The notes under the pieces: generated by a model | What the model was told of the DNA's origin: nothing | The model's database searches: none | Seen by the model: the letters and a program-made list of their open reading frames with translations, nothing else | Shown: positions 26,106-50,047 of the stretch, piece by piece | Position numbering within the stretch: the stretch's first letter is position 1 | How the letters are laid out: every line of letters begins with the position of its first letter | Made by a program: the position numbers and the translations under genes | Source: Rugalucina vietnamica | Taxonomy: Eukaryota > Mollusca > Bivalvia > Lucinida > Lucinidae | DNA length: 64,000 nt | Reading direction: 5' to 3' | Assembly (NCBI GenBank): GCA_964017185.1 | Contig: OZ024876.1 | Coordinates: 15,253,726-15,317,725 of the forward strand

Positions 26106-26158
<53 letters not shown>

Positions 26159-26184
26159 AGCATCAAGATTTATGAGTGAAGTAA

Positions 26185-26238
<54 letters not shown>
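26073..26238. repeat. Duplicated unit with (GA)n tracts
   Basis: GGAAAATAGCATCAAGATTT followed by ATGAGTGAAGTAAATA and a (GA)n run occurs twice, at about 26073-26151 and 26152-26237. Confidence 0.95.
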
Positions 26239-26243
<5 letters not shown>

Positions 26244-26328
26244 CCCGGAGCAGCAGCAAAGAAGACTGTATGTAATGGGTTGGAACTCTTAATTGAAAAT
26301 ATTCATGGTGAATTTGGTACACACACCA

Positions 26329-26348
26329 TCAAATGCAATCAAATGCAC
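26329..26348 (-). repeat. Possible 3' terminal repeat of the intact LINE
   Basis: Two copies of ATCAAATGCA lie about 45 bp past the LINE stop codon. CR1/L2 elements end in short tandem repeats of this kind, but no target duplication was identified, so this is only a candidate end. Confidence 0.3.
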
Positions 26349-26393
26349 TAATTCAAGTATGACAAACGCGCTTTTTAAGCTGAATGAACTAAT

Positions 26394-29300: not shown

Positions 29301-29930
29301 TTTATAGTGAATTGAATCTTTAATGTATATCATGACACCACCACCATGGGTGTCACTCTGGCGATCTTTCCTTACAGGTTCTCCATAAGAGTCAATTAAC
29401 AGTCTATCATTTTTTATAGAAGGATTCAGCCATGTTTCCGAAAACGCTAGAATGTCAAATTCGCTCAGTTCAGCGCTGAGTATATCGATCTTATTTACTA
29501 TACTATGGACATTATAATGAACGATGGAGAGATGGTTAGCCAATGCTGTGATACTCATCAACGAGGAGTCTGGGCTGGAACTACGGGAGATACTACTATC
29601 AGCGTCTGAGAACGGACCTGGATTAAGTTCTATGTCCCCTGATTGAAGAATCAATATGAAAAACCAAAAACCTGATATCACTGCAAAAAGCAACTTCAAG
29701 CAATTTGAAATAAAAGTACAATTTTCTTCATAGTGTTTTCCAGGAACGATTCGTTTGAGCATATTATTGTAGACGAATCCTCGAGCCTTAATTTTCTGTT
29801 TAAGGCTAAGAAGCAATGTAAACGAGTCTGGCCTGTTCCAAATGCTAATAATCAGTAGTGTAAATAAAAATAAAGATGCATGAGTACCATTGTATTTACA
29901 AGCACGTGTTGCAACAACAAATTTCCTCAA
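26394..29930 (-). CDS. Intact non-LTR retrotransposon ORF2: endonuclease-reverse transcriptase with 2A motif
   Basis: An uninterrupted 1178-residue polyprotein that nicks DNA and copies its own RNA into the nick (target-primed reverse transcription). Order: two hydrophobic segments (about 18-30 and 78-96); a 2A-like GDIELNPGP (98-106); apurinic-type endonuclease (about 133-348) with HYN140, SETW (E165) and GDFN (D273, N275); a basic linker (430-445); reverse transcriptase (about 615-860) with FCDVSKAFDRVWH (D708), VPQGSILGPL and FADD (D796, D797); thumb; and a C-terminal Cys/His cluster C1107-C1109-C1111-H1119-C1124. The residue before H342 of the endonuclease is Tyr where most relatives have Asp (SDH). 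No stops or frameshifts, so the copy is young and possibly active. CR1/L2/Jockey-like; the exact clade needs a tree. An ORF1 was not found upstream. The start at 29930 is the first Met of the frame; a later Met cannot be excluded, but 2A lies downstream of it. Confidence 0.95.
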   Translation of the reverse strand: MRKFVVATRACKYNGTHASLFLFTLLIISIWNRPDSFTLLLSLKQKIKARGFVYNNMLKRIVPGKHYEENCTFISNCLKLLFAVISGFWFFILILQSGDIELNPGPFSDADSSISRSSSPDSSLMSITALANHLSIVHYNVHSIVNKIDILSAELSEFDILAFSETWLNPSIKNDRLLIDSYGEPVRKDRQSDTHGGGVMIYIKDSIHYKRRPDLEPIGIECIWIEMVLRHKHILFGLFYRPPDSNFNYLATIENSIHLAVDSGIKDIIITGDFNFDMLKTPTAKKVYDLCAEYSLTQMINEPTHFDKNSSSLIDLLLVGNNNSVLLSGVGDPFLNQPIKYHCPVYGIFKFSKPKRQSFQRFVWRYEQGNYNLLRQKAASFNWNTLKHQDINVYAKALVDKILEFSKQSIPNKVVTIRPSEPTWMNSNIRKHIRKRKRAYRKAKRTNLQIDWVRFKHLRNETTSLIRDSKNALTDSLANKLKSDSLSSKQWWSLLKSFISPTSKSSCPPLVKDGLVYSDEKDKANILNDFFKDQTLLDDSSAEMPEVTSYPLHHNLDSIILTPDEVKNILKALPIGKATGPDGLSNRILAALANELSSPLCDFFNQSLYQGDVPDSFKESHVSPVPKGGDQSLPSNYRPISLLSNMEKCLERAVFKYLYNHFRDNDILTSFQSGFIPGDSTVNQLAFLYDTFCQAIDDEKEVRVVFCDVSKAFDRVWHAGLIHKLKAAGITGQLLDWFVSYLENRRQRVVISGVQSDWAYISAGVPQGSILGPLLFLLYINDIVNDIGCNIRLFADDTSLFVIVENPDSAAELINTDMGKISTWAGKWLVKFNPGKNESFVVSLKTDKPVHPPLFMLNEQIKEVQCHKHLGIYLSTDCSWHKHIEYIKEKAWARINVMRKFKYTLDRKSLETIYITFIRPILEYADIIWDNCTQQEKNDLEKIQLEAARIATGATKLVSIENLYDETGWEKLETRRKNHKLTLFYKMFNNISPTYLSSLVPQLVQNVSNYNLRNADDIRTIYARTRLYSNSFLPSTIRDWNNLPRNVRDVDTVDSFKRHLSQGRANVPKYYYSGSRRLQVLHTRLRTGCSSLKYDLCAKNIVNSPLCDCRCGAIENADHFFLRCHLYREHRVALQNSILQYSVFNLNVILKGDENLSYETNVSIFESVHKYIQNTNRF
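29613..29639 (-). other. 2A-like ribosome-skipping motif in LINE ORF
   Basis: Codons GGG GAC ATA GAA CTT AAT CCA GGT CCG give GDIELNPGP, matching the D-x-E-x-N-P-G-P consensus. Such motifs make ribosomes skip the Gly-Pro bond; here that would release a hydrophobic leader of about 105 residues from the enzyme. 2A-like motifs at this place are reported for other non-LTR elements. Confidence 0.85.
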
Positions 29931-30311
29931 TTTATTGTCACGAAACTTGGTAGATCAGGTAAAGGAAAAGTGTTGTTGCAATCACGCACAGGTAATGTGT
30001 ATTGTACGCAACAGGCGTATTGTATACTTCAGCAAAACTACCCCATACAGTCCGCTCCGATGCTGCACCAGGATCCCCAAGAATGAAAGACAGAGAATGA
30101 ACAAAGAGAAACATTAAGAAAAACATTATGATAACAAGCGGAGGAAATGCATTGCTCTGTCGTAACTTATAGAAGGATTAACATTTTTTTATAATTTGAC
30201 TGTTATGTTATGTTATATGATATATGCAATATTACGTTATGTTATGTATGCAATGTTATTTTATGTTATGCAAACAAGTTATGTGTTAAGCATGCAATAT
30301 TATTATTATAC

Positions 30312-30383
30312 TATGTATGTATGTATGTATGTATGTATGTATGTATGTATGTATGTATGTATGTATGTATGTATGTATGTATG

Positions 30384-30416
<33 letters not shown>

Positions 30417-30652
30417 TAGTGTAATGTTATGTTATGTAATGTTTGCAAAATTCTATGTTATGTTAGGCGTGTATGTACGTATGAATGTATGTTATGTTGT
30501 TATGTATGTATGTATGTATGTATGTATGTATGTATGTATGTATGTATGTATGTATGTATGTATGTATGTATGTTATGCTTTGTTATGTATGTGTGTATGT
30601 ATGTATGTATGTATGTATGTATGTATGTATGTATGTATGTATGTATGTATGT
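30312..30652. repeat. Three (TATG)n arrays
   Basis: Perfect or nearly perfect TATG runs at 30312-30412, 30501-30572 and 30592-30652, separated by TTATG-rich sequence, with related sequence from about 30195. The Tyr-Val-Cys-Met frames in all phases are artefacts. Confidence 0.97.
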
Positions 30653-30659
30653 CAGACAT

Positions 30660-31480
30660 TTCAGACTATGATACATATCAACTAATTACAAGTAGTTCTA
30701 ATGCGTTGATAATCAGTAACAAAACTAACATATTAAACATATCAATATACAACAGATTTGTTATTTATCAGAATGTTGATGACAAATTGATGACATGCCT
30801 ATATATAAAGACATTTGATGATAGATATCATAACAAACTTTTTTGAAAATCAACCAAATACAAGAAAGTATAATGTATTGGTGACTAGTGACAAAGTATC
30901 ATATCAAATCGTATAAGTTAACATCTATGTACAGATACATGGAGCGTGTAAATGACACAGTAGAGTAAACAATCGCTCAAAAATCACATACAGATAGACA
31001 AAGACTATATATCGAGAAAATTAGTTATCAGACTTGTAATTTACCAGAATGTGTATGACATATTGATGACATGACTATAATAAAGACATATTAGATATCA
31101 GACTTGTAATTTACCTTTTTTGAACAGTATACTTCGAAGATTTTTGAAATGGAATGTCCTATGAGTAGTATTCACAGTTCATTCATACTTAGCTATATTA
31201 ATAGAATCATAGATTTTCAGCAAAATATGAAATTTGAGCAGATTTTTAAAAACGACTGTCACCTTTTATGTGAAGTTCATCCTTTTTATCCAATTATTAA
31301 TTTAGAATTCCTCCAAACGTGAAAGAAATCAGTTCATTTCAATTTTCGAAATCACTCCGAAACAAAAACACAACCGTCAACCATATTGATCACGTGACCT
31401 CCCTTCTGTAAGTTGTCATAGCTGACAGTGATAAAAGATAAGTTCATTAAGTTGGACTTAAGAACATTAGATCAAAACAA
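30660..31480. other. No gene seen
   Basis: AT-rich. TTAGATATCAGACTTGTAAT-like blocks repeat at about 31021 and 31090 with ATGACATATTGATGACATG between. No protein recognised. Confidence 0.45.
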
Positions 31481-31489
31481 CATGGCAAG

Positions 31490-31759
31490 ACAGTTATACA
31501 GTTGCATCCAGGGCTGAGCTAAGTTCGATAAGTTACAATAGTTGCACACAATAGCAAAGCTAAATGCACGTACATGTCTGCATCTAAGTTAAGTTTGATG
31601 AGTTGTATAAGTTAAGCAAGCTGAGTTATATAGGTTTTAGATTAATAACTTGGATGAGTTAAGTTAAGCAAGTCGAAGTCTGGGTTTAATTAGCTATGTG
31701 AGTAAGATATGTTATATGTATCACAGGACAAGCTAAGTTTGTTAAGTAGAGTAAGTTAA
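31490..31759 (+). repeat. Decayed edge of satellite array
   Basis: GTTAAGCAAGCTGAGTT, AAGTTTGATGAGTTGTATAA and related pieces show the same motif as the array but without fixed 30-bp spacing. This gradual decay at one edge is typical of tandem arrays. Confidence 0.7.
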
Positions 31760-34700
31760 GCAAGCTAAGTTGAAGAATAAGTTTGATGAGCTGATGAGCG
31801 ATGAGTTGGATAAGTTGAACAGTAAGTTTGATGAGTTGGATAAGTTCAGCGATGAGTTAGATGAGTTGGAAAAGTTGAGCGTTGAGTTAGATAAGTTGGA
31901 TAAGTTGAACATCAAGCTCGATGAGTTGCATGAGTTATACGCTGAGTCAGGTAAGTAGAGCGATGAGTTGGGTTAGTTGCAAAAGTTTAATAGTAAGTTG
32001 GATGAGTTGGATAAGTAATACGTTGAGTTCGATGAGTTGGATAAGTTGAACAGTAAGTTGGATGAGTTGGATAAGTTGTAAGCTGAGTTCGATGAGTTGG
32101 ATAAGTTTCATGTTGATGTGGATGAGTTCGATAAGTTGAACAGTAAGTTGGATAAGTTATACGCTGAATTCGATGAGTTGGATGTTGTATGCTGAGTTCG
32201 ATGAGTTGCATAAGATGAACTATAAGTTCGTTAAGTTAGTTAAGTTGAACAATAAGTTGGATGAGTTGGATAAGTTGTAAGCTGAGTTCGATGAGTTGGA
32301 TAAGTTGTCAGCTGAGTTGGATGAATTGGATAAGTTGTAAGCTGAGTTGGGTAAGTTGCATAAGTTGAACAGTAAGTTCGATGAGTTCGATAAGTTAAAC
32401 AGTAAGTTGGATGAGTTGGATAAGTTGTAAGCTGAGTTGGGTAAGTTGCATAAGTTGAACAGTAAGTTGGATGAGTTGGATAAGTTGTAAGCTGAGTTGG
32501 GTAAGTTACGTAAGTTGAACAGTAAGTTCGATGAGTTCGATAAGTTGAACAGTGGGTTGGATGAATGGATAAGTTGTAAGCTGATTTCGATGAGTTGCAT
32601 AAGTTGAACAGTAAGTTGGATAAGTTGGATAAGTTGTAAGCTGTGTTGGGTAAGTTGCATAAGTTGAACAGTAAGTTTGATGAGTTCGATAAGTTGCACA
32701 GTAAGTTGGATGAGTTGGATAAGTTGTAAGCTGAGTTGGATGAGTTGGATAAGTGCATGTTGAGTTGGATGAGTTGGATAAGTTATAAATAGAGTTCGAT
32801 GAGTTGGATTAGTTGCATGCTGAGTTGGATGAGTTGCATAAGTTGAACTATAAGTTCGTTAAGTTCGATAAGTTGAACAGTAAGTTGGATGAGTTGGATA
32901 AGTTGTAAGCTAAGTTGGATAAGTTGCATAAGTTGAACAGTAAGTTCGAAGAGTTCGATAAGTTGAACAGTAAGTTGGATGAGTTGGATAAGTTGTAAGC
33001 TGAGTTGGGTAAGTTGCATAAGTTGAACAGTAAGTTCGATGAGTTCGATAAATTGAACAGTAAGTTGGATGAGTTGGATAAGTTGTAAGCCGAGTTCGAT
33101 GAGTTGGATAAGTTGCATGTTGAGTTGGATGAGTTTGGATAATTTATACGAAGAGTTCGATGAGTTGGATAAGTTGCATGCTGAGTTCAATGAAGTGCAT
33201 ATGTTGAACTGTAAGTTCGTTAAGTTCGATAAGTTGAACAGTATTCAAGTAAGTTCGATGAGTTCGATAAGTTGAACAGTGAGTTTGATGAATGGATAAG
33301 TTGTAAGCTGAGTTCGATGAGTTGCATAAGTTGAACAGTAAGTTGGATGAGTTGGATAAGTTGTAAGCTGAGTTGGGTAAGTTGCATAAGTTGAACAGTA
33401 AGTTGGATGAGTTGGATAAGTTGCACAGTAAGTTGGATGAGTTGGATAAGTTGTAAGCTGAGTTGATGAGTTGGATAAGTGCATGTTGAGTTGGATGAGT
33501 TGGATAAGTTATACAAAGTGTTCGATGAGTTGGATAAGTTGCATGCTGAGTTGGATGAGTTGCATAATTTGAACTATAAGTTCGTTAAGTTCGATAAGTT
33601 GAACAGTAAGTTGGATGAGTTGGATAAGTTGTAAGCTTTGTTGGGTGAGTTGCATAAGTTTAACAGTAAGTTTGATGAGTTGGATAAGTTGTAAGCTGAG
33701 TTGGTTAAGTTGCATAAGTTGAACAGTAAGTTCGATGAGTTCGATAAGTTGAACAGTAAGTTGGATGAGTTGAATAAGTTGTAAGCTGAGTTGGGTAAGT
33801 TGCATAAGTTGAACAGTATGTTGGATGAGTTGGATAAGTTGTAAGCTGAGTTGGGTAAGTTGCATAAGTTGAACAGTAAGTTCGATGAGTTCAATAAGTT
33901 AAACAGTAAGTTGGATGAGTTGGATAAGTTGCATGTTGAGTTGGATGAGTTGGATAAGTTATACAAAGAGTTCGATGAGTTGGATAAATTGCATGCTGAG
34001 TTGGATGAGTTGCATAAATAGAACTATAAGTTCGTTAAGTTCGATAAGTTGAACAGTAAGTTGGATGAGTTGGATAAGTTGTAAGCTGAGTTGGGTGAGT
34101 TGCATAAGTTAAACAGTAAGTTGGATGAGTTGGATAAGTTGTAAGCTGAGTTGGGTAAGTTGCATAAGTTGAACAGTAAGTTCGATGAGTTCGATAAGTT
34201 GAACAGTAAGTTGGATGAGTTGGATAAGTTGTAAGCTGAGTTCTATGAGTTGGATAAGTTGCATAAGTTGAACAGTAAGTTGGATGAGTTGGATAAGTTG
34301 TCAGCTGAGTTGGGAAGTTGCATAAGTTGAACAGTAAGTTCGATTAGTTCAATAAGTTAAACAGTACGTTGGATGAGTTGGATAAGTTGCATGTGGAGTT
34401 GGATGATTTGGATAAGTTGCACAGTAAGTTCGATGAGTTGGATAAGTTGCATGCTGAGTTGGATGAGTTGCATAAGTTGAACTATAAGTTTGTTAAGTTC
34501 GATAAATTTAACAGTAAGTTGGATGAGTTGGATAAGTTGTAAGCTGAGTTGGGTGAGTTGCATAAGTTGAACAGTAAGTTGGATGAGTTGGATAAGTTGT
34601 AAGCTGAGTTGGGTAAGTTGCATAAGTTGAACAGTAAGTTCGATGAGTTCGATAAGTTGAACAGTAAGTTGGATGAGTTGGATAAGTTGTAAGCTGAGTT

Positions 34701-37295
34701 GGATGAGTTGGATAAGTTGCATGTTGAGTTCGATGAGTTGGATAAGTTATACGAAGAGTTCGATGAGTTGGATAAGTTGCATGCTGAGCTGGATGAGTTG
34801 CATAAGTTGAACTATAAGTTCGTTAAGTTCGATAAGTTGAACAGTAAGTTGGATAAGTTGGATAAGTTGTAAGCCGAGTTGGGTAAGTTGCACAAGTTGA
34901 ACAGTATGTTGGATGAGTTCGATAAGTTAAACAGTAAGTTGGATGAGTTGGATAAGTTGTAAGCTGAGTTGAGTAAGTTGCATAAGTTGAACAGCAAGTT
35001 CGATTAGTTCGATAAGTTGAACAGTAAGTTGGATGAGTTGGGTAAGTTATAAGCTGAGTTCGATGAGTTGGATAAGTTGTAAGCTGAGTTGGAAGAGTTT
35101 GATAAGTTATACGAAATGTTCGATGAGTTGGATAAGTTGCATGCTGAGTTGGATAAGTTGCATAAGTTGAACTATAAGTTCGTTAAGTTCGATAAGTTGA
35201 ACAGTAAGTTGGATGAGTTGGATAAGTTGTAAGCTGAGTTGGGTAAGTTGCATAAGTTGAACAGTAAGTTGGATGAGTTGGATAAGTTGTAAGCTGAGTT
35301 GGATACGTTGCATAAGTTGAAAAGTAAGTTCGAAGAGTTCGATAAGTTGAACAGTAATTTGGATGAGTTGGATAAGTTGTAAGCTGAGTTGGGTAAGTTG
35401 CATAAGTTGAACAGTAAGTTGGATGAGTTGGATAAGTTGTAAGCTGAGTTGGATAAGTTGCATAAGTTGAACAGTACGTTCGATGAGTTTGATAAGTTGA
35501 ACAGTAAGTTGGATGAGTTGGATAAGTTGTAAGCTGACTTGGATGAGTTGGATTAGTTGCATGTTGAGTTGGATGAGTTGGATAAGTTATACGAAGAGTT
35601 CAATGAGTTGGATAAGTTGCATGCTGAGTTGGATGAGTTGCATAAGTTGAACAGTAAGTTGGATGAGTTGGATAAGTTGTAAGCTGAGTTGGGTAAGTTG
35701 CATAAGTTGAACAGTAAGTTCGATGAGTTCGATAAGTTGAACAGTAAGTTGGATGAGTTGGATAAGTTGTAAGCTGTGTTGGATGAGTTGGATAAGTTGC
35801 ATGTTGAGTTGGATGAGTTGGATAAGTTATACGAAGAGTTCAATGAGTTGGATAAGTTGCATGCTGAGTTGGATGAGTTGCATAAGTTGAACTATAAGTT
35901 CGATAAGTTCGTTAAGTTGAACAGTAAGTTGGATGAGTTGGATAAGTTGTAAGCTGAGTTGGGTAAGTTGCATAAGTTGAACAGTAAGTTCGATGAGTTT
36001 GATAAGTTGAACAGTAAGTTGGATGAGTTGGATAAGTTGTAAGCTGAGTTGGATGAGTTGGATAAGTTGAACAGTAAGTTGGATGAGTTGGATAAGTTGT
36101 AAGCTGAGTTCGATGAGTTGGATAAGTTGCATGATGAGTTGGATGAGTTGGATAAGTTGTAAGCCGAGTTGGGTAAGTTGCACAAGTTGAACAGTATGTT
36201 GGATGAGTTCGATAAGTTGAACAGTAAGTTGGATGAGTTGGATAAGTTGTAAGCTGAGTTGGATGAGTTGGATAAGTTGCATGTTGAGTTGGATGAGTTG
36301 GATAAGTTATACGAAGAGTTCAATGAGTTGCATAAGTTGAACTATAAGTTCGTTAAGTTCGATAAGTTGAACAGTAAGTTGGATGAGTTGGATAAGTTGT
36401 AAGCCGAGTTGGGTAAGTTGCACAAGTTGAACAGTATGTTGGATGAGTTGAACAGTAAGTTGGATGAGTTGGATAAGTTGTAAGCTGAGTTGGGTAAGTT
36501 GCATAAGTTGAACAGTATGTTGGATGAGTTGGATAAGTTGTAAGCTGAGTTGGGTAAGTTGCATAAGTTGAACAGTAAGTTCGATGAGTTCAATAAGTTA
36601 AACAGTAAGTTGGATGAGTTGGATAAGTTGCATGTGGAGTTGGATGAGTTGGATAAGTTATACAAAGAGTTCGATGAGTTGGATAAATTGCATGCTGAGT
36701 TTGATGAGTTGCATAAATTGAACTATAAGTTCGTTAAGTTCGATAAGTTGAACAGTTAGTTGGGTGAGTTGGATAAGTTGTAAGCTGAGTTGGGTGAGTT
36801 GCATAAGTTAAACAGTAAGTTGGATGAGTTGGATAAGTTGTAAGCTGAGTTGGGTAAGTTGCATAAGTTGAACACTAAGTTCGATGAGTTCGATAAGTTG
36901 AACAGTAAGTTGGATGAGTTGGATAAGTTGTAAGCTGAGTTCTATGAGTTGGATAAGTTGCATAAGTTGAACAGTATGTTGGATGGGTTGGATAAGTTGT
37001 AAGCTGAGTTGGGTAAGTTGCATAAGTTGAACAGTAAGTTGGATGAGTTGGATAAGTTGTTAGCTGAGTTGGGAAGTTGCATAAGTTGAACAGTAAGTTC
37101 GATGAGTTCAATAAGTTAAACAGTACGTTGGATGAGTTGGATAAGTTGCATGTGGAGTTGGATGAGTTGGATAAGTTGCACAGTAAGTTCGAAGAGTTGG
37201 ATAAGTTGCATGCTGAGTTGGATTAGTTGCATAAGTTGAACTATAAGTTTGTTAAGTTCGATAAGTTTAACAGTAAGTTGGATGAGTTGGATAAG
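31760..37295 (+). repeat. Satellite array A, 30-bp monomers, plus orientation
   Basis: About 5.5 kb (by length, some 180 monomers) of a 30-bp unit, typical forms AAGTTGGATGAGTTGGATAA+GTTGTAAGCT, GAGTTGGGTAAGTTGCATAA+GTTGAACAGT and AAGTTCGATGAGTTCGATAA+GTTGAACAGT. Inside each monomer GTTGGATGA/GTTGGATAA are near-repeats of 9 bp. Monomer types are arranged in blocks marked by AACTATAAGTTCGTTAAG, which recurs about every 330-520 bp, mostly 360 or 450. The plus strand is rich in G and T and poor in C. Because 30 is divisible by 3, the three minus frames stay open (QLIQLIQLT, NLSNSSNLLF, TYPTHPTYCS); the plus frames hit TAA in GTTGTAAGC. I regard these frames as artefacts. The right edge is sharp (37295). 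Confidence 0.97.
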
Positions 37296-37540
37296 GCTGC
37301 AGAAATGAGATATTTTTATCTTTCAAACATATGCAAACATGTGGCAAATACAAAAATGAGACCACGTTTGCAGGTGTCAAATATAAATATAATATTCATG
37401 TTTGCTAACGTATGTGCAGACTGCATACAAATATATTTACGTAGTATATTTGCTGTTGTATGATAGGGTAATATTTGCAATATATTTGCATAGGTTGGTA
37501 TGCATATTGGGCTTATTGTGATTTGATCTGGTAGTGGGGT

Positions 37541-37685
37541 ATGCTTTCTGGTAGGTTTGGTTGTTTGATTGGGGTTAAACGTCCCACCAACAGCTAAGGT
37601 CATATGGAGACGGGACCTCGGTTTATAGTCCGATCCAACGGACTGGAGAATCCATGGGTCGAACCTGCGATTGATTTTGGTCAAA
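37541..37685 (-). mobile_element. SINE-like fragment
   Basis: GGGTTAAACGTCCCACCAAC, AGCTAAGGTCATATGGAGAC and GGGTCGAACCTGCG in this order match the body and B-box-like part of the element at 39362. Head on the minus strand. Confidence 0.5.
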
Positions 37686-37689
37686 TTAC

Positions 37690-38694
37690 ATCTTTTCTCT
37701 CCTTAGATCAATTAACTGTCATGATTGTCGATCCAGTGCTTCAAACCGCAGAACACATTGTCGCCACCAAAGTCCTTGACTAGTTAATATCCTTTTGGCG
37801 CACAGTTAACTAAATATGCACATGATATAATATGTGAATCATTGAGCATGTAGCCTCTTCAAGCCATAAATTAGAAATGGTATTTTTTTACGCAAATCCT
37901 TATCAATACATGCATTTCGGTTTATTAAAGAAAACCGTTCCTGTGCGCTTTATTTTGTTGAAACATTTGAACTTACAGCTCTCGAATTTCATATGTAACT
38001 GACTTATAGTTATGAAATTATTATTTTTAATCAAAAAAGGAGCCTATTGGAGTGCAATTGCCCACATATTAACTTGAAATATTACACGTAGTTGCAATTA
38101 AACTAAATTGTATTTCGTTAGCATGTTGGATATAAAATTTAGAAAATTGCGAGTTTTGTGGAAAATAAAATGTAACAAAAATCATTGAAGAATCGTACAT
38201 ATATAATGTCAATAACTATCCTGTCGACGCAAAATTTTGCTAGACATTTATGTTAAATACTAAATAACGCTTTTGTTTCATATCCCAGCTAACTGATCGT
38301 TATACAGACAACACTATGAAAACGAAAACGTGTTACACTTAAAAGATGCTCGACAGTTTGAACTAAACGGTGGTTAAATTTTGTTCACTAATGTCAATGT
38401 CATTACCCCGAGATGCAGAGTCATAATGTTAATTCTACATAATAATGAATAAATGTTCTACACCGAATTTGGCACCGATGTTACAATAGGTTTTTTGCAT
38501 ACGATAAGATAAGGGGCGGGCGTGTTTAGGCACATGTGTTCCGCGCACATCAAAAGAATGATTCCAGACGCATAGGTTATTGCATAGCTAATTGGTTAAT
38601 TAGCGCCTACATCAATCAAATGAAACTGGAATGTATTTTATCTTAAAAGACGGTCTTTCGAGACGCTATACATACAATCCTCTTAGTTATATTT
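37690..38694. other. No gene seen
   Basis: AT-rich spacer sequence between the satellite arrays; no coding or repeat feature recognised. Confidence 0.5.
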
Positions 38695-38784
38695 AGAGAA
38701 TTGTTTCTACGAGTAATTGATATAAACCACGAGGGGGCGGAGCCCCCGAGAAGTTTATATCAATTACGAGTAGAACAATTTTCT
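38695..38784. mobile_element. Short foldback element
   Basis: CGAGTAATTGATATAAAC (left) and GTTTATATCAATTACGAG (right) pair with one slipped base further out. The loop contains GGGGGCGGAGCCCCC. Total 90 bp, no coding capacity. Confidence 0.8.
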
Positions 38785-38992
38785 GTATCATGGTCCAACC
38801 AGAATCAAGCATTCAATTTTCCCATGACTTCATTGTTTTAGATTGTCAGTTAATTACCAAGAATGACAGGTATAATGGCTGATAAGCTGATTTATTGTTT
38901 GACCTAAAACACAGCAACTTTTGAATTTGAAATTCTGGTATGTCACGTGGCATAATTTGAAAACCACGAAGGTGCTTTTAGTTGTTCATTTA

Positions 38993-39039
<47 letters not shown>

Positions 39040-39361
39040 ATGTGCTGAATTTTCATATCTTATATAGTGAGTTTTCAATATAATGTAGATTAATCTATCT
39101 ACATTTCAATTTTATAGAGTGCGCATGATTTATTGCAGGTTCAAAACCGCTGTGACAAGTGCGCATCTGTCCCTTTGATTTCCCGTAATAAAACAATAAT
39201 CGCAGTTTTATCAATTTTTGACGATATCGGCGGTAACAGACATGGTGTTCAAAGGAATAAATAATTAGGTGATAATGACCCTCAAGATACTGCAGTCTCC
39301 CGTTTACTTGCATTGTGCTCTCAGCATGTAATTAAAGGTGCTAAGTAGGTCACTAATTGAG
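38785..39361. other. No gene seen; poly-A tract
   Basis: A poly-A run of about 43 bases lies at 38993-39036. The rest is unassigned. Confidence 0.6.
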
Positions 39362-39565
39362 TTCTTAGTCCATCCGTAGAAAGTCCTTGGTTTAATGTCC
39401 CAGTCAACAATTTTCAGTCATTTCGGGACGGAGTCACCGCTTTTTGTGTATAAACCAGTGCTGTGGGGGTCAGTCAACAGGGTGCCGCCACGGTGGGAAT
39501 CGAACGCAGGACCTCTTGAATCGGAGTCCGAGTGTTCTCACGGTTATCACAGGAACTGTAGTATT
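39362..39565 (-). mobile_element. tRNA-derived SINE
   Basis: On the minus strand a B-box-like GCGTTCGATTCCCACCG near 39514 is followed by a body with the complement of GTTTAATGTCCCAGTCAACA (about 39391). Similar bodies lie at 4935 and 37541. The A box is weak. Confidence 0.55.
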
Positions 39566-39777
39566 GCACCTTAAGCTGGTTTAACAGCATGTTTGCCGAC
39601 CTAGCATCCAGTTCCCCACAGTTAGCCAGTCGGCTTTTACATATACAGCTTAGTCTGTCAGCTTTAAAGGATCAATGGCCAATTGTGCAATATTTCAGCG
39701 ACCAATATTGTATTTCAGTACATTTTAGTTGTGCATAATTGGTTATTAATATTTGTGTTACGTGTTTGTAGCAATTA

Positions 39778-40036
39778 CGAAAACTTCGCGTCCATGCAAT
39801 ATACAGATTTTTTTTCAGCTGTAAAAATTGAAAATAGCATCAGAAAAACTTATATTATTAATATTATTGCTCAAATCATAGATCATGGGTACACTTTAAA
39901 ACCGCCTCGCCTAGGCGGCTCCACAATCTATGATTTGGACCAAAGATAAGAAAAAATATGTATACCCCTGCATACCTCAGTTTTACTGTATAAAAGCGGG
40001 GTTTAATTGGGTATTCATTGCACGGACATATTATCC
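39778..40036 (+). mobile_element. Family B MITE, copy 3
   Basis: CGAAAACTTCGCGTCCATGC start, inner palindrome around CGCCTCGCCTAGGCGG, GTATACCCCTGCATACC and TATAAAAGCGGGG. The right end is degraded (CACGGACATATTATCC). Confidence 0.75.
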
Positions 40037-40039
40037 GAA

Positions 40040-40800
40040 CCGAACACCACCTAAATGAAAATGAAGTAATTATATCAGCTATATGTATACACGATTTTTG
40101 GTTTGTACATTTAAAAGCCACTGCATTACCAATACGTGCTAAACAAAAGCAAAACTGACACTGTATATGTGACAACAATAGCAAGAAAAATACGTATTCG
40201 ATCAATTTATGTTTAATTATACCGGCCTTTCTTTAGGGTAGTTTAAGAATATTCAGTAACAGGCATGCAATCTGATGTCGGTGTGTCACCTGGCCTAGCA
40301 TGAGTATTATTTTTGTATATTAATTCCCCGCATACCCCTCATACTACGCTTATGTAATTTACGTATTACACGTTCTTTCACATGCTGAAAACACACCCTG
40401 AACCGATTAAAATGTTTTTCGAACGATATCGCAAAGTTAAACAGTTAGTGGCTTAGATTTGATTCTGTAAAACGCGCTGTATGTTGAAGATATATCTTCA
40501 CAATGTGATCAAGGCGTAACCGATGTATTGTTATTTCAAAATATCATTTCTGTACATGTTTTATATCAATCTGTGGTGTAGTGCGATTACTAGTTATCAA
40601 AAATTATACATGTACCATTGTAAATGCAGCAGTATATATGTATACGTAAGGGTGCAAAAAGATTGCAAATGCCGGTCTTTGAACATGCACATGTACAACA
40701 ACGCAACCAAACGAAACAAACATTCACGTTTTCAGAAGATACGTGAATCAGTAAATACTGGCTTACTCAGTAATACACATATCATTGTAAATGCGGTAAC
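40040..40800. other. No gene seen
   Basis: No coding or repeat feature recognised. Confidence 0.5.
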
Positions 40801-40802
40801 CC

Positions 40803-40998
40803 GCACCTCAAATCTCCGCATCGACCATGCGGAACTCCGCACAACATCTGCGGAATTCCGCATCAACTATGCGGAATTCCGCAAAAACATACGGAATATC
40901 AGCATTCCGCATAAGCATGCGGAACTCCGCAGAGGTTTCACAATATGCAGAATTTCTTCCGCATCTCTCATCAGAAACTTTTCCGCACCAGCAGCGGA
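40803..40998. repeat. Cluster of ATGCGGAATTCCGCAT palindromes
   Basis: At least ten half-sites GCGGAA or TTCCGC, many paired as GCGGAATTCCGC or GCGGAACTCCGC, spaced 6-12 bp apart. Related clusters are at 41931-42012 and 43592-43632. A frame rich in RNSAE periods over it is an artefact. Confidence 0.85.
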
Positions 40999-41011
40999 AA
41001 AATCGGACTGA

Positions 41012-41930
41012 ATACTTTTTTTAGTGTGAAAAATGTAGACTCAGACAATTTTTGAAGCGGAAAATATCTTAGATTATTTTACATGCGGAAAATAACTTAG
41101 AAAAATTTTACTTGGACAATTTTTGTATATTGGACTTTTCTTAGTGTCAGTGTCCCAGTGTATCTTAGGAAAATTATAGTGCAGAAATTTTGACTTTTTA
41201 CAAACAAAAAATTTCATGAAAAAATACCAAATTATCGCTGCCATGTATTTCTGGAGTCAAACTGTCAAATGTTAGAGACCATGCGCAAAATATATCATTA
41301 TCGGGGAAATTTGAAATTATATCCGGGAATAGTCAGGGAAATGTCAGGTAATTTCGCTTCCGCCTGAGCGTGGCAACCCTTTCCTGGAGTTCCATTCAAA
41401 TACTCCATAGACTCTACTCTTTTAGTTATTTAATCTGACATAGATGAATAATACAGATGTAGACGATTTCATGGAAACAATTTAGTTTATTGAAATTTTA
41501 TAACTTATGCAATTCGTTTTGGCAAACTTTATAATGTTAGGAATTATGTATGTGTACCAGAAGATGGCTCAAAAGTTAGCATGTTTGATTCCACACATGA
41601 AAATATTTCTAATCCCATTTTCGCTTCCGGCACTGATTCAAGAGCACTTGTTAGTTTCAACTGACAAAAGAAATGTGCCCTAAGTACTAGAGAGTTTCAA
41701 CTGACAAAAGAAATGTGCCCTAAGTACTAGTTATCTGCCCCAAACATGCTTGTCTAGGAATAGTGTGGTTAGGATAGCTGACTGTCCAGATATGACCTTA
41801 GCTGTTGACTACATGTGGACATAAAGCAATGAAACAAACAAACACAACCATATTGAGATAATGTAATAATATACATTTCTTTTGTCTCTCTTGACTTTAA
41901 ACCAGCACCTCAAACCCCTGTATCACACAG
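41012..41930. other. Non-coding, with a 40-bp tandem duplication
   Basis: AGTTTCAACTGACAAAAGAA and the next 18 bases occur twice, at 41653 and 41693, perfectly. No gene seen. Confidence 0.8.
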
Positions 41931-42012
41931 AGCGGAACTCCGCATCACATGCGGAATTTTTTCCGCACCTCATGCGGAATTTTTTCCGCACCTCATGCGG
42001 AATTCCGCATCA
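41931..42012. repeat. Second GCGGAA palindrome cluster
   Basis: Contains two copies of ATGCGGAATTTTTTCCGCAC followed by CTC, with a T6 loop between half-sites, and a final ATGCGGAATTCCGCAT. Confidence 0.9.
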
Positions 42013-42487
42013 GACCATTTTGAATATATTGTTGCTGACCAATAGGAAATCAGAATTTCAAGTACTGACTTACTTCCTGTTTTCAAATATTAGAGGGAGA
42101 ATTGTTTGAAAGGAAGTGTTCTAACATGTGCCATTTTTAAAATTGTGTTATTATGAAAATGCTGTTAAGGAGTTTAGTTCTTTAGCATTGTAAGTAGCCA
42201 GTATTTATATGAATTGTATTTTTATGTTGCTCTATGCCTTCTTTGTGTTGAAATTTCGGCTACTGCACAGCAGATTGCTTCAATAAATTTTGTCTCAGTC
42301 GACGAATTTAGTTCAACAAAACAATGATTCAGGAACATTAGAATCTCTAGAGTGAGATGTTAAACCACAATACAAAATTACAGGTCTTCATATACAATAG
42401 TTATTTCTCAAAGCAATTCAGACATAACTTTCTCCAGATTAAAATGTGTTTCCTTTGCATTCTCTGAAACAGCTTGACCTTTAGCCT
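42013..42487. other. No gene seen
   Basis: No coding feature recognised. Confidence 0.5.
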
Positions 42488-43142
42488 TGTTCTCACTGTC
42501 CCAGTTCTACCCCGGTGAAGACAAGCCAGTATACTGTGATAAACCTAGTAACTGTTTCTACCAAAATTGATCGTGTTCTCAGTCACGGTGTTACCATGTA
42601 GCCCTTACCATGTAGCCCCGGTCTTGTTCCTAGTTCTACCATGGTATTGTCATGGTGCAGGCCGGTGTGCCTCGGTTTTACTACAGTAAAGCCTGGTAGC
42701 GTCCCCACCTGTCACCTGTGTAAACCGGGAAGCCACCGAGGCAAACCGGGGTACCCCATGGCCAAATTATTTAAGCCTGTTTGCCCCTGTGGCATCTTGG
42801 TTCACCCTGGTAGAGTCCCGGTGAAGCCCCTGTTTGTGCCGGAATAGCCCGGTGTTGTCCCTGTTACCCACGGTTTGCACCCGATCATCTTGGTTTATCA
42901 GGGTTGAGTCCCGTGCCATCAAGGTTTGTCACTGTGTCCAGTTTTTGACATCTCTCACGGTTCACCTGGGATTTCCCCGGTTGTATTAAACATTTTTATA
43001 CAACCATGAAGGCTCCCCGGTTTATCCCGGTTCTTCCCAGTTTGCCACGGTAGCACTAAGGTTCTATCACGGTTCGTCCCGGTTTACCCCGGTTTGATTT
43101 ACCCCGGGCGAACTGGGGAGCTAAACCGGGACAGCGAGAACA
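42488..43142. mobile_element. 655-bp TIR element with CCCCGGTTTA-type core
   Basis: Ends are inverted: left TGTTCTCACTGTCCCAGTT, right AACCGGGACAGCGAGAACA reversed against it with two mismatches. Flanks TAGCCT (42482) and TAGCTT (43143) may be a 6-bp target duplication with one change. The interior is dense in short CCCGGT, ACCCCGGTTT and CCTGGT motifs, on one strand for most of the length and complementary near the right end. No protein. Likely a non-autonomous DNA transposon. Confidence 0.75.
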
Positions 43143-43148
43143 TAGCTT

Positions 43149-43647
43149 AAGTAAGAATGGAGATTGTACAATCAAATTCATAATCCCACACCGGATACCG
43201 GGCGAGTGATTAAGTACAGCACAATACAACATGAAAATGTTACAACACCCATGAAGAGCAAAATGATAACTTCTGTCTCAACAAAGATAGCCATCTGGCT
43301 TCCATCAACCAAATATAAAAGTGACAAGTACAACAGAAAAGCATCTACATAGTAAACAGAAAACATAAAGAAAAATCACATCAAAACCGCCTTGGAACTG
43401 TCAGTGAAGAAATTACTGGAGGGCCACAATCCTCACCATTCGACCCTTAAAAGCCAAACAAGAGTCATATGAAGCCTAGGGAATGCTGAGTCAAACATTT
43501 GTATAAATTTAGAAAAATGTTCAGGTCACATGACCAAGGTGGTCACCACACCCATATATGGTAAAAACTTTCTGGAACAGAAAGTCCAATATAGAATTCC
43601 GCAGGATGCGGAGCTCAGCATCATGCGGAATATGTTCCCGAATATAT
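43149..43647. repeat. Fragment related to the Helitron-like element and GCGGAA cluster
   Basis: CAGGTCACATGACCAAGGTG and CCCATATATGGTAAAAAC (43523-43568) match 49524-49568 in the element at 48349. The short GCGGAA palindrome set follows at 43592-43632. The rest is unassigned. Confidence 0.6.
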
Positions 43648-46600
43648 TATCCAACTCTGTTCCTTACTGTTCAATTTATGCAACTTACCAAACTCAGCTT
43701 ACAACTTATCCAACTCATCCAACTTACTGTTCAACTTATCGAACTTAACGAAATTATAGTTCAACTTATGGAACTCATCCAACTCAGCATGCAACTTATC
43801 CAACTCATCGAACACATCGTATAACTTATCGAACTCATCGGACTCAACATACAACTTATCCAACTCATTGAACTCAGCTTACAACTTAAACAACTCATCC
43901 AATTAACTGTTCAACTTATCCAACTCAGCGAACTCAACTTACAACTTATCCAACTCATCCAACTTACTGTTCAACTTATCGAACTCATCGAACTTACTGT
44001 TCAACTTATCGATCTCATCAAACTTACTGTTCAACTTATGCAACTGACCCAACTCAGCTTACAACTTATCCAACTCATCCAACTTACTGTTCAACTTATC
44101 GAACTTAACGAACTTATAGTTCAACTTATGCAACTCATCAAACTCAGCATGCAACTTATCCAACTCATCGAACTCTTTGTATAACTTATCCAACTCATCC
44201 AACTCAACATGCCACTTATCCAACTCATCCAACTTACTGTTTAACTTATTGAACTCATCGCACTTACTGTTCAACTTATGCAACTTACCCAACTCAGCTT
44301 ACAACTTATCCAACTCATCCAACATACTGCTCAACTTATGCAACTTACCAAACTCAGCTTACAACTTATCCAACTCATCCAACTTACTGTTCAACTTATC
44401 GAACTCATCGAACTTGCTGTTCAACTTATGCAACTTACCCAACTCAGCTTACAACTTATCCAACTCATCCAACTTACTGTTCAACTTATCGAACTTAACG
44501 AGCTTATAGTTCAACTTATGTAACTCATTGTGCTTAGCATGCAACTTATCCAACTCATCGAACACATCGTATAACTTATCAAACTCATCGGACTCAACAT
44601 GCAACATATCCAACTCATCGAACTCATCTTACAACTTATGCAACTCATCCAACTTACTGTTCAACTCATCCAACTCATCGAACTCAGCTTACACCTTATT
44701 CAACTCATTCAACTTACTATCCAACTTATCGAACTCATCGAACTTACTGTTCAACTTATCGAACTTACTGTTCAACTTATGCAACTTACCCAACTCAGCT
44801 TACAACTTATCCAACTCATCCAACTTACTGTTCAACTTATGCAACTTACTCAACTCAGCTTACAACTTATCCTACTCATCCAACTTACTGTTCAACGTAT
44901 CGAACTTAACGAACTTATAGTTCAAGTTATGCAACTCATCCAACTTAGCATGCAACTTATCCAACTCATAGAACTCAGCGTATAACTTATCCAACTATTC
45001 CAACTCAACATGCAACTTATCCAACTCATCGAACTCAGCTTACAACTTATCCAACTCATCCAACTTACTGTTCAACTTATCCAACTCATCGAACTCAGCT
45101 TACAACTTATCAAACTCATCAAACTTACTGTTCAACTTATCGAACTCATTAAACTTACTGTTCAACTTATCGAACTCATTGAACTTACTGTTCAACTTAT
45201 GCAACTTACCCAACCCAGCTTACAACTTATCCAACTCATCCAACTTACTGTTCAACTTATGCAACTCACCCAACTCAGCTTACAACTTATCCAACTCATC
45301 CAACTTACTGTTCAACTTATACAACTCATCGAACATTTCGTATAAACTTAACGAACTTATAGTTCAACTTATGCAACTCATCCAACTCAGCATGCAACTT
45401 ATCCAACTCATCGAACTCAACTTACAACTTATACAACTCATCGAACATTTCGTATAACTTATCCAACTCATCCAACTCATCGAACTTACTGTTCAACTTA
45501 TGCAGCTTACCCAACTCAGCGTATAACTTATGTAAGTCATCGAACTCAGCAAGCAACTTATCCAACTCATCAAACTCAGCGTATAACTTATCCAACTCAT
45601 CTAACTCAACATGCAGCTTATCAAACTCATGGAACTCAGCGTATAACTTATACAACTCATCGAACTTACTGTTCAACTTATGCAACTCATCGAACTCAGC
45701 TTACAACTTATCGAACTCATCAAACTTACTGTTCAACTTATCGAACTCATCGAACTTACTGTTCAACTTATGCAACTTACCCAACTCAGCTTACAACTTA
45801 TCCAACTCATACAACTTACTGTTCATCTTATCGAACTTAACGAACTGGTAGTTCAACTTATGCAACTCATCCAACTCGGCATGCAACTTATCCAACTCAT
45901 CGAACACATTGTATAACTTATCAAACTCATCGGACTCAACATGCAATTTATCCAACTCATCGAACTCAGCTTACAACTTATCCAACTCATCCAACTTACT
46001 GTTCAACTTATCCAACTCATCGAACCCAGCTTACAACTTATCCAACTCATCCAACTTACTGTTAAACTTATCCAACTCATCGAACTTACTGTTCAACTTA
46101 TCGAACTCATCGAACTTACTGTTCAACTTATGCAACTTACCCAACCCAGCTTACAACTTATCCAACTCATCGAACTTACTGTTCAACTTATCGAACTTGA
46201 CGAACTTATAGTTCAACTTATGCAACTCATCCAACTCAGCATGCAACTTATCCAACTCATCGAACACATCGTATATTTATCAAACTCATCGGACTCAACA
46301 TGCAACTTATCCAACTCATCGAACTCAGCTTACAACTTATCCAACTCATCCAACTTACTGTTCAACTTATCCAACTCATCCAACTCAGCTTACAACATAT
46401 ACAACTCATCCAACTTACTGTTCAACTTATCGAACTCATCGAACTTACCGTCAACTTATCGAACTCATCGAACTTACTGTTCAACTCATGCAACTTACCC
46501 AACTCAGCTTACAACTTATCCAACTCATCCAACTTACTGTTCAACTTATGCAACTCATCGAACTCAGCTTATAACTTATCCAACTCATCCAACTCACTGT

Positions 46601-47760
46601 TCAACTTATCAAACTCATCCAACTTACTGTTCAACATATGCAACTTACCCAACTCAGCTTACAACTTATCCAACTCATCCAACTTACTGATCAACTTATG
46701 CAACTTACCCAACTCAGCTTACAACTTATCCAACTCATCCAACTTACTGTTCAACGTATCGAACTTAACGAACTTATAGTTCAACTTATGCAACTCATCC
46801 AACTCAGCATGCAACTTATCCAACTCATCGAACATTTCGTATAACTTATCCAACTCTTCCAACTCAGCTTACAACTTATCTAACTCATAGAACTCAGCTT
46901 ACAACTTATCCAACTCATCCAACTTACTGTTCAACTTATCGAACTTAACGAACTTATAGTTCAACTTGTGCAACTCATCCAACTCAGTATGCAACTTATC
47001 CAACTCATCGAACATTTCGTATAACTTATCCAACTCTTCCAACTCAGCTTACAACTTATCCAACTCATCGAACTCAGCTTACAACTTACCCAACTAATCC
47101 AACTTACTGTTCAACTTTTCGAACTCATCGAACTTGCTGTTAAACTTATGCAACTTACCCAACTCAGCTTACAACTTATCCAACTCATCCAACTTACTGT
47201 TCAACTTATGCAACTTACTCAACTCAGCTTACAACTTATCCAACTCATCCAACTTACTGTTCAACTTACCGAACTTAACGAACTTATAGTTCAACTTATG
47301 CAACTCATCCAACTTAGCATGCAACTTATCCAACTCATAGAACTCAGCGTATAACTTATCCAACTCATCCAACTCAACATGCAACTTATCCAACTCATCG
47401 AACTCAGCTTACAACTTATCCAACTCATCCAACTTACTGTTCAACTTATCCAACTCATCGAACTCAGCTTACAACTTATCAAACTCATCGAACTTACTGT
47501 TCAACTTATCGAACTCATCAAACTTACTGTACAACTTATCGAACTCATGGAACTTACTGTTCAACTTATGCAACTTACCCAACCCAGCTTACAACTTATC
47601 CAACTCATCCAACTTACTGTTCAACGTATGCAACTTACCCAACTCATCGAACTTGTTCTTTAACTTATCCAACTCAGCGAACTCAACATGCAACTTACCC
47701 TACTTATCGAACTTAACATTCAACTTCGGTTACTCAACTTACTGAACTCTTCGAACTTAA
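43648..47760 (-). repeat. Satellite array B, 30-bp monomers, minus orientation
   Basis: About 4.1 kb of the same monomer as 31760-37295 but inverted: plus-strand forms AACTTATCCAACTCATCCAA+CTTACTGTTC, ATCCAACTCATCGAACTCAG and similar. The block marker appears as CGAACTTATAGTTCAAC about every 330-490 bp, with outliers at 180 and 570. Monomer types, junctions and block order match array A closely, so the arrays share one origin. The left edge is abrupt, just after the GCGGAA cluster. Confidence 0.97.
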
Positions 47761-48172
47761 CTTAAATATTAAGACTTATTATAATGTATGATATCCTATG
47801 TTCCCCAACCTATATGCTAACTATTATAACTCATCCAACTCAACTTACATTGTTTAGTATCCATGAATAGTTCGTTCTACACATCAGCTACTATTTGTTA
47901 TATTAAATGCAACTATAACAACTTATCCTACTCAACTTACATCTTTGATCATCCCGTATGGTATAAGTATCTTCAATATATAAGGAATATAACGGTCCAC
48001 AGAATAAATACGGTAAGCTGTAAGCTGAGCTAGATGAGTTAAGCTAAGTTGAGAATTCTTTGCGTTTTCGCCTCAAGAAAGACAAGAACTATCAGCCAAA
48101 ATATGTGTATACTTTTTGTCCCTATGTGCTGAGCATGATGAGCTGAGTAAGTTGAGCTTCCATTGTGTAGAT
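47761..48172. repeat. Decayed satellite edge, mixed orientation
   Basis: Scattered CATCCAACTCAACTTACA pieces (47831-47850, 47930) continue array B. At 48012-48053 and 48127-48155 the motif flips to the plus orientation (GTAAGCTGTAAGCTGAGC). Confidence 0.65.
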
Positions 48173-48348
48173 ATTCGGGACCGGGAGTATGAAGTATAAG
48201 CCTTTTATTTCGACAAACATATATAAAATAATTAAAAGTAACAGAGTATATCACAGCATGCACATGTATATAAACACGATTAGTTACGAGATGAATCACA
48301 GATAATAGGAAGTACTTTTATATCACGGCAAGCAAATTGTTGTATTTT

Positions 48349-50047
48349 TAGCTCACCTGAGCCGAAGGCTCATAGGTGAGCTTATAGTATACCCATGCTC
48401 CGGCGTCCGTCCGTCGTCCGTCCGTCCGTCCGTCGTCCGTCGTCCACAATTTCAAAGATCTTCTTCTCTGAAACCGCTGGGCCGATTGTTCTCATATTAC
48501 ACATACACCATCTACAGGTAGGGGGAAATAATAATTGTGTTTTTTGTTTTGATCGGATAAGGACTCTGGTTGCTATGGCAACTTATGCTTCCCATAGACT
48601 TATAATGGAAAAAAAGTGAAAATTGCCAGTTTTGGCTGTCTTGTTGGAGATATTTGAATTTTGTTTTTGCAGAAATGTTTATTGAGTAGTCCTTTACGTT
48701 TCATGTGACTTTTGTCCTAATCCTTCATTTTGATTGGTTGCAGGGGCCCCATATAGGGCAAAATTTCGAAAAACATTCAAAAATCTTCTTCTCAGAAACT
48801 GTCAAGGGGATGAAGCCTATACTTTGTATACATGTTCCTGACAGTGACCTCTACATAATTTGTGTTTTTTTATTCCAGGCGGATAAGAATTCTGGTTGCC
48901 CTGGCAACTTAAAGTTTCCATAGACTTATAATGGGAAAAGTGGAAATCGGCTATTTTTCCGCTAAAATTGCAGAGATTTAAATTTTGTTTTTGCAGAAAT
49001 GTTTATTGAGTAGTGTTTAACGTTTCTTGCGAGTTTTGTCCTAATCCTTTATTTTGATTGGTTGCTGGGGCCCCATAAAGGGCAAAATTTTGAAAAAAAA
49101 AAAAAAAAAACATTCAAAAATCTTCTCCTCAAAAACTGTCAAGTGGATGAATCCTGTACTTTGTATACATGTTTCTGACAGTAGCCTCTACATAATTTGT
49201 GTTTTTTATTCCAGTCGGATAAGAACTCTGGTTGCTATTGTAACTTTAAGTTTCCATAGACTTATAATGGGAAAAGTGGAAATTAGCTATTTTTTGAAAA
49301 CTATTGCAGCCTGAGATCTGAAAAGTGGTAGATGCAAACAACTAATGGATTAGATGAAGGTAAATGATTAATTTAGGTCAAGGTCATCTCTTGACCTTGG
49401 CCGGTCTGTCGTCCATACACACTTTTCAAAGATTTTTGTCTCTGAAACCACTAGGCCAATCAAAGCCAAATTTTATATGAAGCATCTATAGGAAGTGGGA
49501 ACCAATGTGTATATAAATAATCCAGGTCACATGACCAAGATGGCCGCCATGCCCATATATGGTAAAAACCCTTAAAATATCTTCTTCTCCAGAACCAGTG
49601 AACCGATTTCAACGAAACTTTGCATGAAGTATGGGTGACTCAAGTACTACAATGTATATATAAAACATGACCCTGTGGTGACCTTGACCTATTTTATGGC
49701 AAGGTCAACATAGTCAACATAGGTCGTCAATGCATTTGAATGGGGAAAACTTTTAAAATGTCATTTTAAGTGAAAGTCTTGCAGGAAATGGGCAGTAGGA
49801 CTGAAATTTAATGATTCTGAAAAAAAAATGGACCCCAGGGGCTCATCTGCTTTTAAAATGTTATTTGAAGGGGAAAATCAGCAGGAAATTGGCAAATGGA
49901 CAAAATATTGATTATTCTGAAAAAAGAAAATGGCCCAAGGGCTTCATCTGCCCCTGCACTGGGGTTAAATACCATTATATTCAAATATGTTTATTGGTAT
50001 ATGAAGCAGATCTCAGGTGAGCGTTTACAGGACCATTGGTCCTCTGG
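48349..50047 (+). mobile_element. Helitron-like tandem-repeat element, second copy
   Basis: Same left hairpin (AGCTCACCTGAGCCGAAGGC..AGGTGAGCT), (CGTCCGTC)n, and right end CTCAGGTGAGCG..GGACCATTGGTCC-CTCTGG before host TTTT. The core differs: two units of about 325 bp (CAGAAATGTTTATTGAGTAG at 48671 and 48996) plus a single-copy part with CATGACCAAGATGGCCGCCA. Closely related ends with different cores suggest core exchange within the family. Confidence 0.75.

Follow-up and report, generated by a model that had tools for sequence, protein, structure and literature searches.

The 64,000-nt stretch of Rugalucina vietnamica DNA analysed here (hereafter the window; contig OZ024876.1, positions 15,253,726 to 15,317,725, sequence without any N) carries two large satellite arrays of a 30-bp monomer in opposite orientations, and it is very probable that these form the two arms, left and right, of a single foldback-type, apparently non-autonomous DNA transposon copy. 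Tandem Repeats Finder placed the left array (A) on the plus strand at 31800-37295 with 182.5 copies (~183) and the right array (B) on the minus strand at 43663-47644 with 133.1 copies. Self-alignments widened array B to 43647-47726 (~136 copies), and the spacer separating the arrays (37296-43646) measures 6.35 kb. An initial annotation of this DNA had already proposed the pair; the pair is real, and the limits given above replace those first drawn. The outer edges of both arrays consist of degenerate monomers, covering 31432-31799 to the left of array A, which begins properly at 31800, and extending to ~47954 to the right of array B. The inner edges of both arrays are sharp.

The proposal that both arrays use the same monomer in opposite orientation around a spacer was supported by the repeat finder, by 12-mer content and by shared monomer types. 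Of the 12-mer positions of array A, 78.7% were present in the reverse complement of array B and 0% in same-strand B. Array words, defined as 12-mers occurring 3 or more times, gave more than 2 matches per 250-bp bin only in bins 31501-37251 (plus strand) and 43501-47751 (minus strand). Thirteen monomer types were identical in both arms, accounting for 71/183 monomers in A and 47/135 in B. The GC skew flips between the arms, as first described, from ~+0.65 in A to ~-0.6 in B, and the WW (A or T dinucleotide) autocorrelation of the 30-bp unit at lag 9 reached 0.29 in A and 0.28 in B compared to 0.06 in the spacer. The likeness of A to B amounted to ~79-83% in long alignments and ~90% in the best 360-bp windows, with blocks up to 97% over 376 bp. 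Folding 1-kb pieces of A and B together predicted RNA pairing of -1458.6 kcal/mol, in which 900/1020 bases of A were paired to B, compared to -418.8 kcal/mol for a single mononucleotide shuffle of B. This prediction is consistent with the earlier claim that the arms could pair, and the strands should be able to do so along kilobases, making a hairpin or double-stranded RNA (dsRNA) from the two arms possible.

A coding origin of the arrays appears unlikely: sense frames contained far more stops than antisense frames, the three antisense frames being open to nearly the same degree, and single-base indels were present. From the stop distribution over the frames and these indels, the long open reading frames (ORFs) within the arrays look like a composition effect. 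A viral contig was also discarded, as it holds a single exact 20-base match and no tandem array. The search for RNA genes returned no Rfam match at the gathering score and no tRNA. Within the window, the flanks of A and B showed no homology beyond shuffles save for the degenerate monomers, and the outer array edges showed no shared subtypes, edge-edge scores being no higher than edge-array scores.

The element holding both arrays is larger than the array pair; it occupies 25347-48202 and measures ~17.3 kb without a nested long interspersed nuclear element (LINE). The 23-bp sequence at 25347-25369 recurs exactly, in inverted orientation, at 48174-48196, and a copy with two mismatches lies at 25454-25476 (0/100 shuffles matched). 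The features of the window copy are as follows.

25347-25369, plus strand: left terminal 23-mer TACTTCATACTCCCGGTCCCGAA, a shared terminus
25454-25476, minus strand: second inverted terminal motif with 2 mismatches, also in other copies
25346-25832, plus strand: left end domain, sharing 92.6-99.6% identity with the corresponding domain of 14 further copies (all 487 bp in 11, part of it in 3)
25833-31415, minus strand: LINE insertion with a 12-bp target duplication and an empty site in the C9 and C11a copies
31416-31799, plus strand: remainder of the left end domain, degenerate monomers
31800-37295, plus strand: left arm, ~183 copies of the 30-bp monomer
37296-43646, plus strand: spacer, nearly whole in the C9 copy and in pieces in C4b, C3b and C11b
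43647-47726, minus strand: right arm, ~136 inverted copies of the 30-bp monomer, degenerate to ~47954
47961-48173, plus strand: right end domain with monomer-like units in plus orientation, shared with other copies
48174-48202, minus strand: right terminus, inverted 23-mer followed by TAAGCC, a shared terminus

The left end forms a 132-bp palindrome (25346-25477) in which the terminal motif stands twice, in inverted orientation, an arrangement common to other copies. The larger copies C9, C11a and C3a matched the right end domain at 89.9-99.0%, and among the matches listed 9 of 10 small copies matched parts of it. Segments 25609-25833 and 48012-48155, first taken for stray remnants, belong to the end domains. 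The left end looked distant from the array because the nested LINE lies in between. This LINE is flanked by the target duplication TTCTGTAAGTTG at 25821-25832 and 31404-31415, and its minus-strand ORF (26394-29930) is uninterrupted, with 1178 aa and reverse-transcriptase (RT) and endonuclease domains. TTCTGTAAGTTG is single in the C9 copy, neither C9 nor C11a has an insert at that place, and in both copies the bases that correspond to window positions 25832 and 31404 overlap. The spacer also contains clusters of TGCGGAATTCCGCA-like palindromes at 40800-40930, 41935-42010 and 43597-43633, and many CCCGGTTTACCCCGG-like words at 42500-43130.

Next to the window copy, the window's own genome (1.09 Gb in 47 contigs, with the window at C8:15253726-15317725) holds many relatives. 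A 600-bp piece of array A matched many loci (26/153 candidate loci scored), with plus and minus clusters adjoining at C11 6.43-6.45 Mb and C3 5.35 Mb. Of six regions examined, some with ends beyond the stretches covered, five contained plus and minus arrays, five matched the left end domain (25346-25832) and three the right end domain (47961-48158), wholly or partly. Both end domains carry the 23-mer, and the layout of the element starts with GGCAGG-TACTTCATACTCCCGGTCCCGAA and ends with the inverted 23-mer and TAAGCC. At ≤2 mismatches the 23-mer gave 180+196 = 376 matches in 1.09 Gb, a count exceeding the number of ends because left ends hold a second copy two mismatches away, and its reversed control gave 0+0. 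A 33-mer of the right-type end gave 76+89 = 165 matches at ≤2 mismatches (reversed control, 0). The first 100 exact ends listed included 19 convergent pairs separated by no more than 35 kb (180 bp to 29.5 kb) and 4 pairs of neighbours oriented otherwise.

Target-site duplications (TSDs) were read from the 8 bp outside GGCAGG and TAAGCC. Among 21 copies bounded by a left and a right end, 18 showed a perfect TSD (11/13, 6/7 and 1/1 in the three sets), and 14/19 convergent end pairs had one. A 9-bp TSD was rejected: the ninth left base was G in all copies of two sets and is the element's own, with T in C2a. Copy sizes span 180 bp, as in a miniature inverted-repeat transposable element (MITE), to ~30 kb, and perfect TSDs occur in copies of 180 bp up to 29.5 kb. 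All 15 array clusters listed on C1-C8 lay within 25 kb of a listed terminus, compared to 0.09 on average and at most 2 in 1000 trials of random placement, for which the size of contig C5 was guessed; on C9-C17, judged by eye from the 100 right-type ends listed, 7/9 clusters had a listed right end within ~31 kb. Full-length left end domains of 12 copies differed by a median of 3.3% (0.4% between the window and C9), and this low divergence indicates that the family is fairly young.

Of 18 copies traced inward from an end, wholly or partly, 11 had both arms (window, C9, C11a, C3a, C3b, C4b, C4c, L032, L033, L035 and L036), the left always plus and the right always minus relative to the ends. In 5 of these 11 (C3a, L032, L033, L035 and L036) the arms abut head to head without a spacer. 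The last ~1.8 kb before the C3b right end lay outside the data examined; the 29.5-kb copy on C6 and the 25.1-kb copy C2a were read at their ends and over 9.5-10 kb of their centres, and a 27.2-kb copy on C11 near its ends only. When the arms of 8 copies were compared (C3a left arm used in part, one C4c left-arm segment omitted), the closest relative was the same-side arm of another copy for 16/16 arms, and an arm's own partner never came first, ranking 3 to 15 of 15. The result held when the window-C9 match was barred, the next best being the same-side C4b arms. Because all 16 arms are closest to same-side arms elsewhere, sequence comparison indicates that the mirrored pair is ancestral, moves as a unit and is inherited by transposition rather than made at the window locus.

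The C9 copy is the closest counterpart of the window copy, with identities of 99.6% (left domain), 99.0% (right domain) and 98.0-98.8% (spacer). In the left arm a 4.8-kb stretch was 98.6% identical, and at the right end 3.2 kb were 99.3-99.4% identical; further stretches of the arms gave 93.9% and 96.3%. The inner junction of A matched C9 base for base over the 180 bp shown. At the inner edge of B, C9 has ~850 bp between spacer and array and an array longer than the window's, so a deletion or insertion sets the two copies apart here. The C9 spacer holds two extra segments relative to the window spacer, which had no match in the C11a spacer. Monomer-like units also occur in the array-less copies, scoring 19.5 bits in L040 and, weakly, 8.9 bits in L041 and 6.1 bits in L038.

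Several other observations concern individual copies. A right end and a left end at G000:C11:56349066-56385797 stand 36.7 kb apart around the C11b array and would delimit the largest of the copies observed. The centre of the 29.5-kb perfect-TSD copy (L045, G000:C6:41092001-41102000) contains ORFs of another repeated sequence. Parts of the right arm in L033 (557-1099), L035 (903-1694) and L043 (G000:C4:22302953-22303390) are open in the G-rich strand and encode a DELDKL-type coiled-coil repeat, the L035 ORF continuing into the opposite arm; these open frames probably reflect shared descent, a coding origin being less likely.

Taken together, the architecture is that of a foldback element: long inverted arms of internal tandem repeats lie inside short unique end domains, the TSD has a fixed length of 8 bp, and dispersed copies have the same termini. 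The copies share ends and 8-bp TSDs, are dispersed, and have mirrored arms inherited as a unit.

A number of observations weigh against assigning the arrays to such a transposon. The window copy itself has no recognisable TSD, as GGCAGG, which stands before the left 23-mer in 15 other listed left ends, is lost at its left end, where bases 25300-25346 resemble the tail of another repeat (TAGACA microsatellite). TSDs are missing in 3/21 copies, C4c (5/8 matching bases), L041 (4/8) and C2a (2/8), with another terminus standing 15 bp past the right end of L041; L039, outside the 21, bears two right-type ends. Arrays were present in one orientation only in 4/18 copies (C11b, examined in part, L034, L037 and L039) and absent from 3/18 (L038, L040 and L041), and the 10-kb centre of the 29.5-kb copy showed no 30-bp array. 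Clusters at C11:5.89 Mb and C13:39.23 Mb had no nearby right end among those listed. No transposase domain was detected in 30 interior ORFs of 9 copies (10 from the window spacer and 20 from eight other copies, with overlapping, low-complexity and array-derived ORFs omitted). Finally, 59 Mutator-like element (MULE; PF10551) and 116 hAT (PF05699) domain matches included none inside an element, as far as 142 listed ends show.

Above the cut-off, the 30 ORFs contained only RT domains, from a LINE nested in C3a, and a weak DUF7625 in the 29.5-kb copy. The 116 hAT matches, from 150/199 candidates scored, included none inward within 40 kb of the 142 listed ends. Only 1/59 MULE matches lay <50 kb from these ends, 36.9 kb from the right end C11:34561649. 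This domain (G000:C11:34598509-34598799, in a 1757-aa open frame) sits 9.7 kb outside the left end of the 27.2-kb copy C11:34561655-34588852, which has the perfect TSD TATTTTTT; the two are probably chance neighbours. The element appears to be non-autonomous, although an autonomous copy may lie between ends beyond those listed. Placing it in the Mutator-like superfamily is a guess, and TSDs of 8 bp are made by other superfamilies too. The TSD length falls in the MULE range, which the accessible part of one source gives as 8-10 bp (PMC5225508).

A foldback transposon would account for these features as follows. A transposase made elsewhere in the genome may recognise the terminal GGC...TACTTCATACTCCCGGTCCCGAA repeats and move all between them. 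The monomer-like units of the end domains could serve as a seed, which slippage or unequal exchange would expand into kilobase arms, and many large copies would have gathered a spacer and nested retroelements. Hairpin or dsRNA pairing across the arms would then be a side effect that could influence excision or silencing.

A more far-reaching version of this transposon reading, which we consider unlikely, describes an extreme foldback family in which the transposon itself builds, mirrors and distributes satellite arrays, its arms lengthening together from ~0.1-0.8 kb in the smallest copies with two arms to ~8 kb yet staying two lineages. If true, it would point to coupled arm growth in transposition or repair, e.g. 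gap repair through a hairpin, or alternatively to arms being selected as extended tracts of binding sites for the transposase, and it would offer a general route to macro-dyad satellites (kilobase mirrored arrays) outside Tribolium.

Retention of the arms for a hairpin or dsRNA function, such as a small-RNA source or a replication barrier, appears less probable still. It would agree with the strong predicted pairing across arms and with the co-variation of arm lengths, for which Spearman coefficients were 0.94 (n=11) and 0.86 (n=7 large copies), although the copies are related, not independent, and one arm was truncated at the end of the stretch examined. However, array-less and one-armed copies also have the termini and TSDs, so both arms are unneeded for mobility.

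Two further explanations carry very little weight. The first, proposed in the initial annotation, is that a single ancestral array was split by a local inversion here. The sharp inner edges would suit such an event, as would the plus-strand monomer remnants right of B, on which an inversion model had been built from 48012-48155. We dropped that model, as these remnants fall within the right end domain and recur with it in other copies; moreover, other loci hold the mirrored pair flanked by the same two end domains and with perfect 8-bp TSDs, in all 16 cases an arm resembles a same-side arm elsewhere more than its own partner, and the inner junction of A is identical in C9 over the 180 bp shown. 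The second, no more plausible, is that the arrays were spread by Helitron/Helentron (HINE) elements, as for oyster satellites. HINE-like elements do flank the unit (~22247-24918 and from 48345), with GTCC-type microsatellites and 166/324-bp arrays, and oyster HINEs carry satellite arrays according to the accessible part of PMC7492417. However, in the oyster HINEs studied all repeats lay in one orientation to their flanks; here 11/11 two-armed copies are inverted, and rather than single-orientation tandem repeats between HINE left and right modules we found 30-bp arrays bounded by GGC-starting inverted termini and 8-bp TSDs.

Mis-assembly of one array, also raised at the outset, is the least credible explanation of all: long inverted repeats are error-prone in assembly, but the longest exact match between A and B is just 98 bp, so array B is not an assembly copy of A, other loci repeat the mirrored layout with the same ends and perfect 8-bp TSDs, and the nearest relative of B is the C9 right arm, not A, in line with the same-side kinship of all 16 arms.

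The first of the flanking HINE/pearl-like elements (22247-24918) contains a TCCGTCG microsatellite and a 166-bp x 14 array and splits a reverse-transcriptase gene into RVT_1 parts at 21461-22171 and, scoring below the curated cut-off, at 24894-25196. The second (48345-49600), 90% identical to the first over the first 100 bp, contains a CGTC microsatellite and a 324-bp x 2.2 array. Farther away, minus-strand exons at 8881-10021 resemble a galactose-3-O-sulfotransferase gene, with PF06990 in 2/3 ORFs, one of them just under the cut-off. A proline-rich ORF at 54835-55422, without a Pfam match, resembles a cytoskeletal-protein exon, formin-like.

With the two arrays read as arms of a foldback transposon, a puzzling satellite pair becomes a testable mechanism, a DNA transposon with mirrored multi-kilobase satellite arms that would seed them across the genome. 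With perfect-TSD copies from 180 bp to 29.5 kb, a single family would suffice to study how arm length affects mobility, hairpin formation and silencing.

The closest architectural parallels are known foldback elements, among them the Drosophila FB and FB-NOF elements, whose arms consist of short (~31 bp) tandem repeats around a central loop. A literature search over titles and the openings of abstracts, covering few subscription papers, found no description of a mollusc foldback element, and the accessible sections of two bivalve satellite papers (PMC7492417, PMC11136912) mention "foldback" only in connection with Tetris. The comparisons below likewise draw on accessible sections of the papers cited. 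Satellite macro-dyads, kilobase mirrored arrays that, as here, could form hairpins, are documented only in Tribolium according to a 2026 paper (PMC13081366), where they occupy megabase putative pericentromeres; in the element described here this geometry occurs in transposon copies that bear TSDs and are scattered over many chromosome-size contigs, not in megabase satellite regions. Galileo of the P superfamily (PMC3573991) has long, internally repetitive, variable-length terminal inverted repeats (TIRs), as here, but these reach ~1.26 kb with ~210-bp tandem repeats, and it makes 7-bp TSDs and has a P-type transposase. Tetris of Drosophila virilis (PMC4079207) is non-autonomous, as the element described here appears to be, with 8-10 bp TSDs and an outer unique domain followed by tandem repeats in inverted arms, repeats that also form satellite-like arrays; its TIRs measure up to 1.7 kb with 220-bp repeats, compared to 30-bp repeats and arms up to ~8 kb here. 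The longest arms described here are thus several times longer than those of Tetris and Galileo.

Tm1, a Mutator/Foldback element of root-knot nematodes (PMC3169594), differs in its 13-15 bp repeat unit (30 bp here), in the length of two copies (1080 and 2593 bp, compared to up to ~30 kb here) and in having a member with a Phantom-like transposase, for which no counterpart was found here. Its TSDs of 8-10 bp, mostly 9 bp, compare with the 8 bp of our element. In both, the inverted ends are composite and hold short tandem repeats in variable number, short terminal motifs that differ between the two ends lie beyond the inverted repeat (GGCAGG and GGCTTA here), and the family includes MITE-like members.

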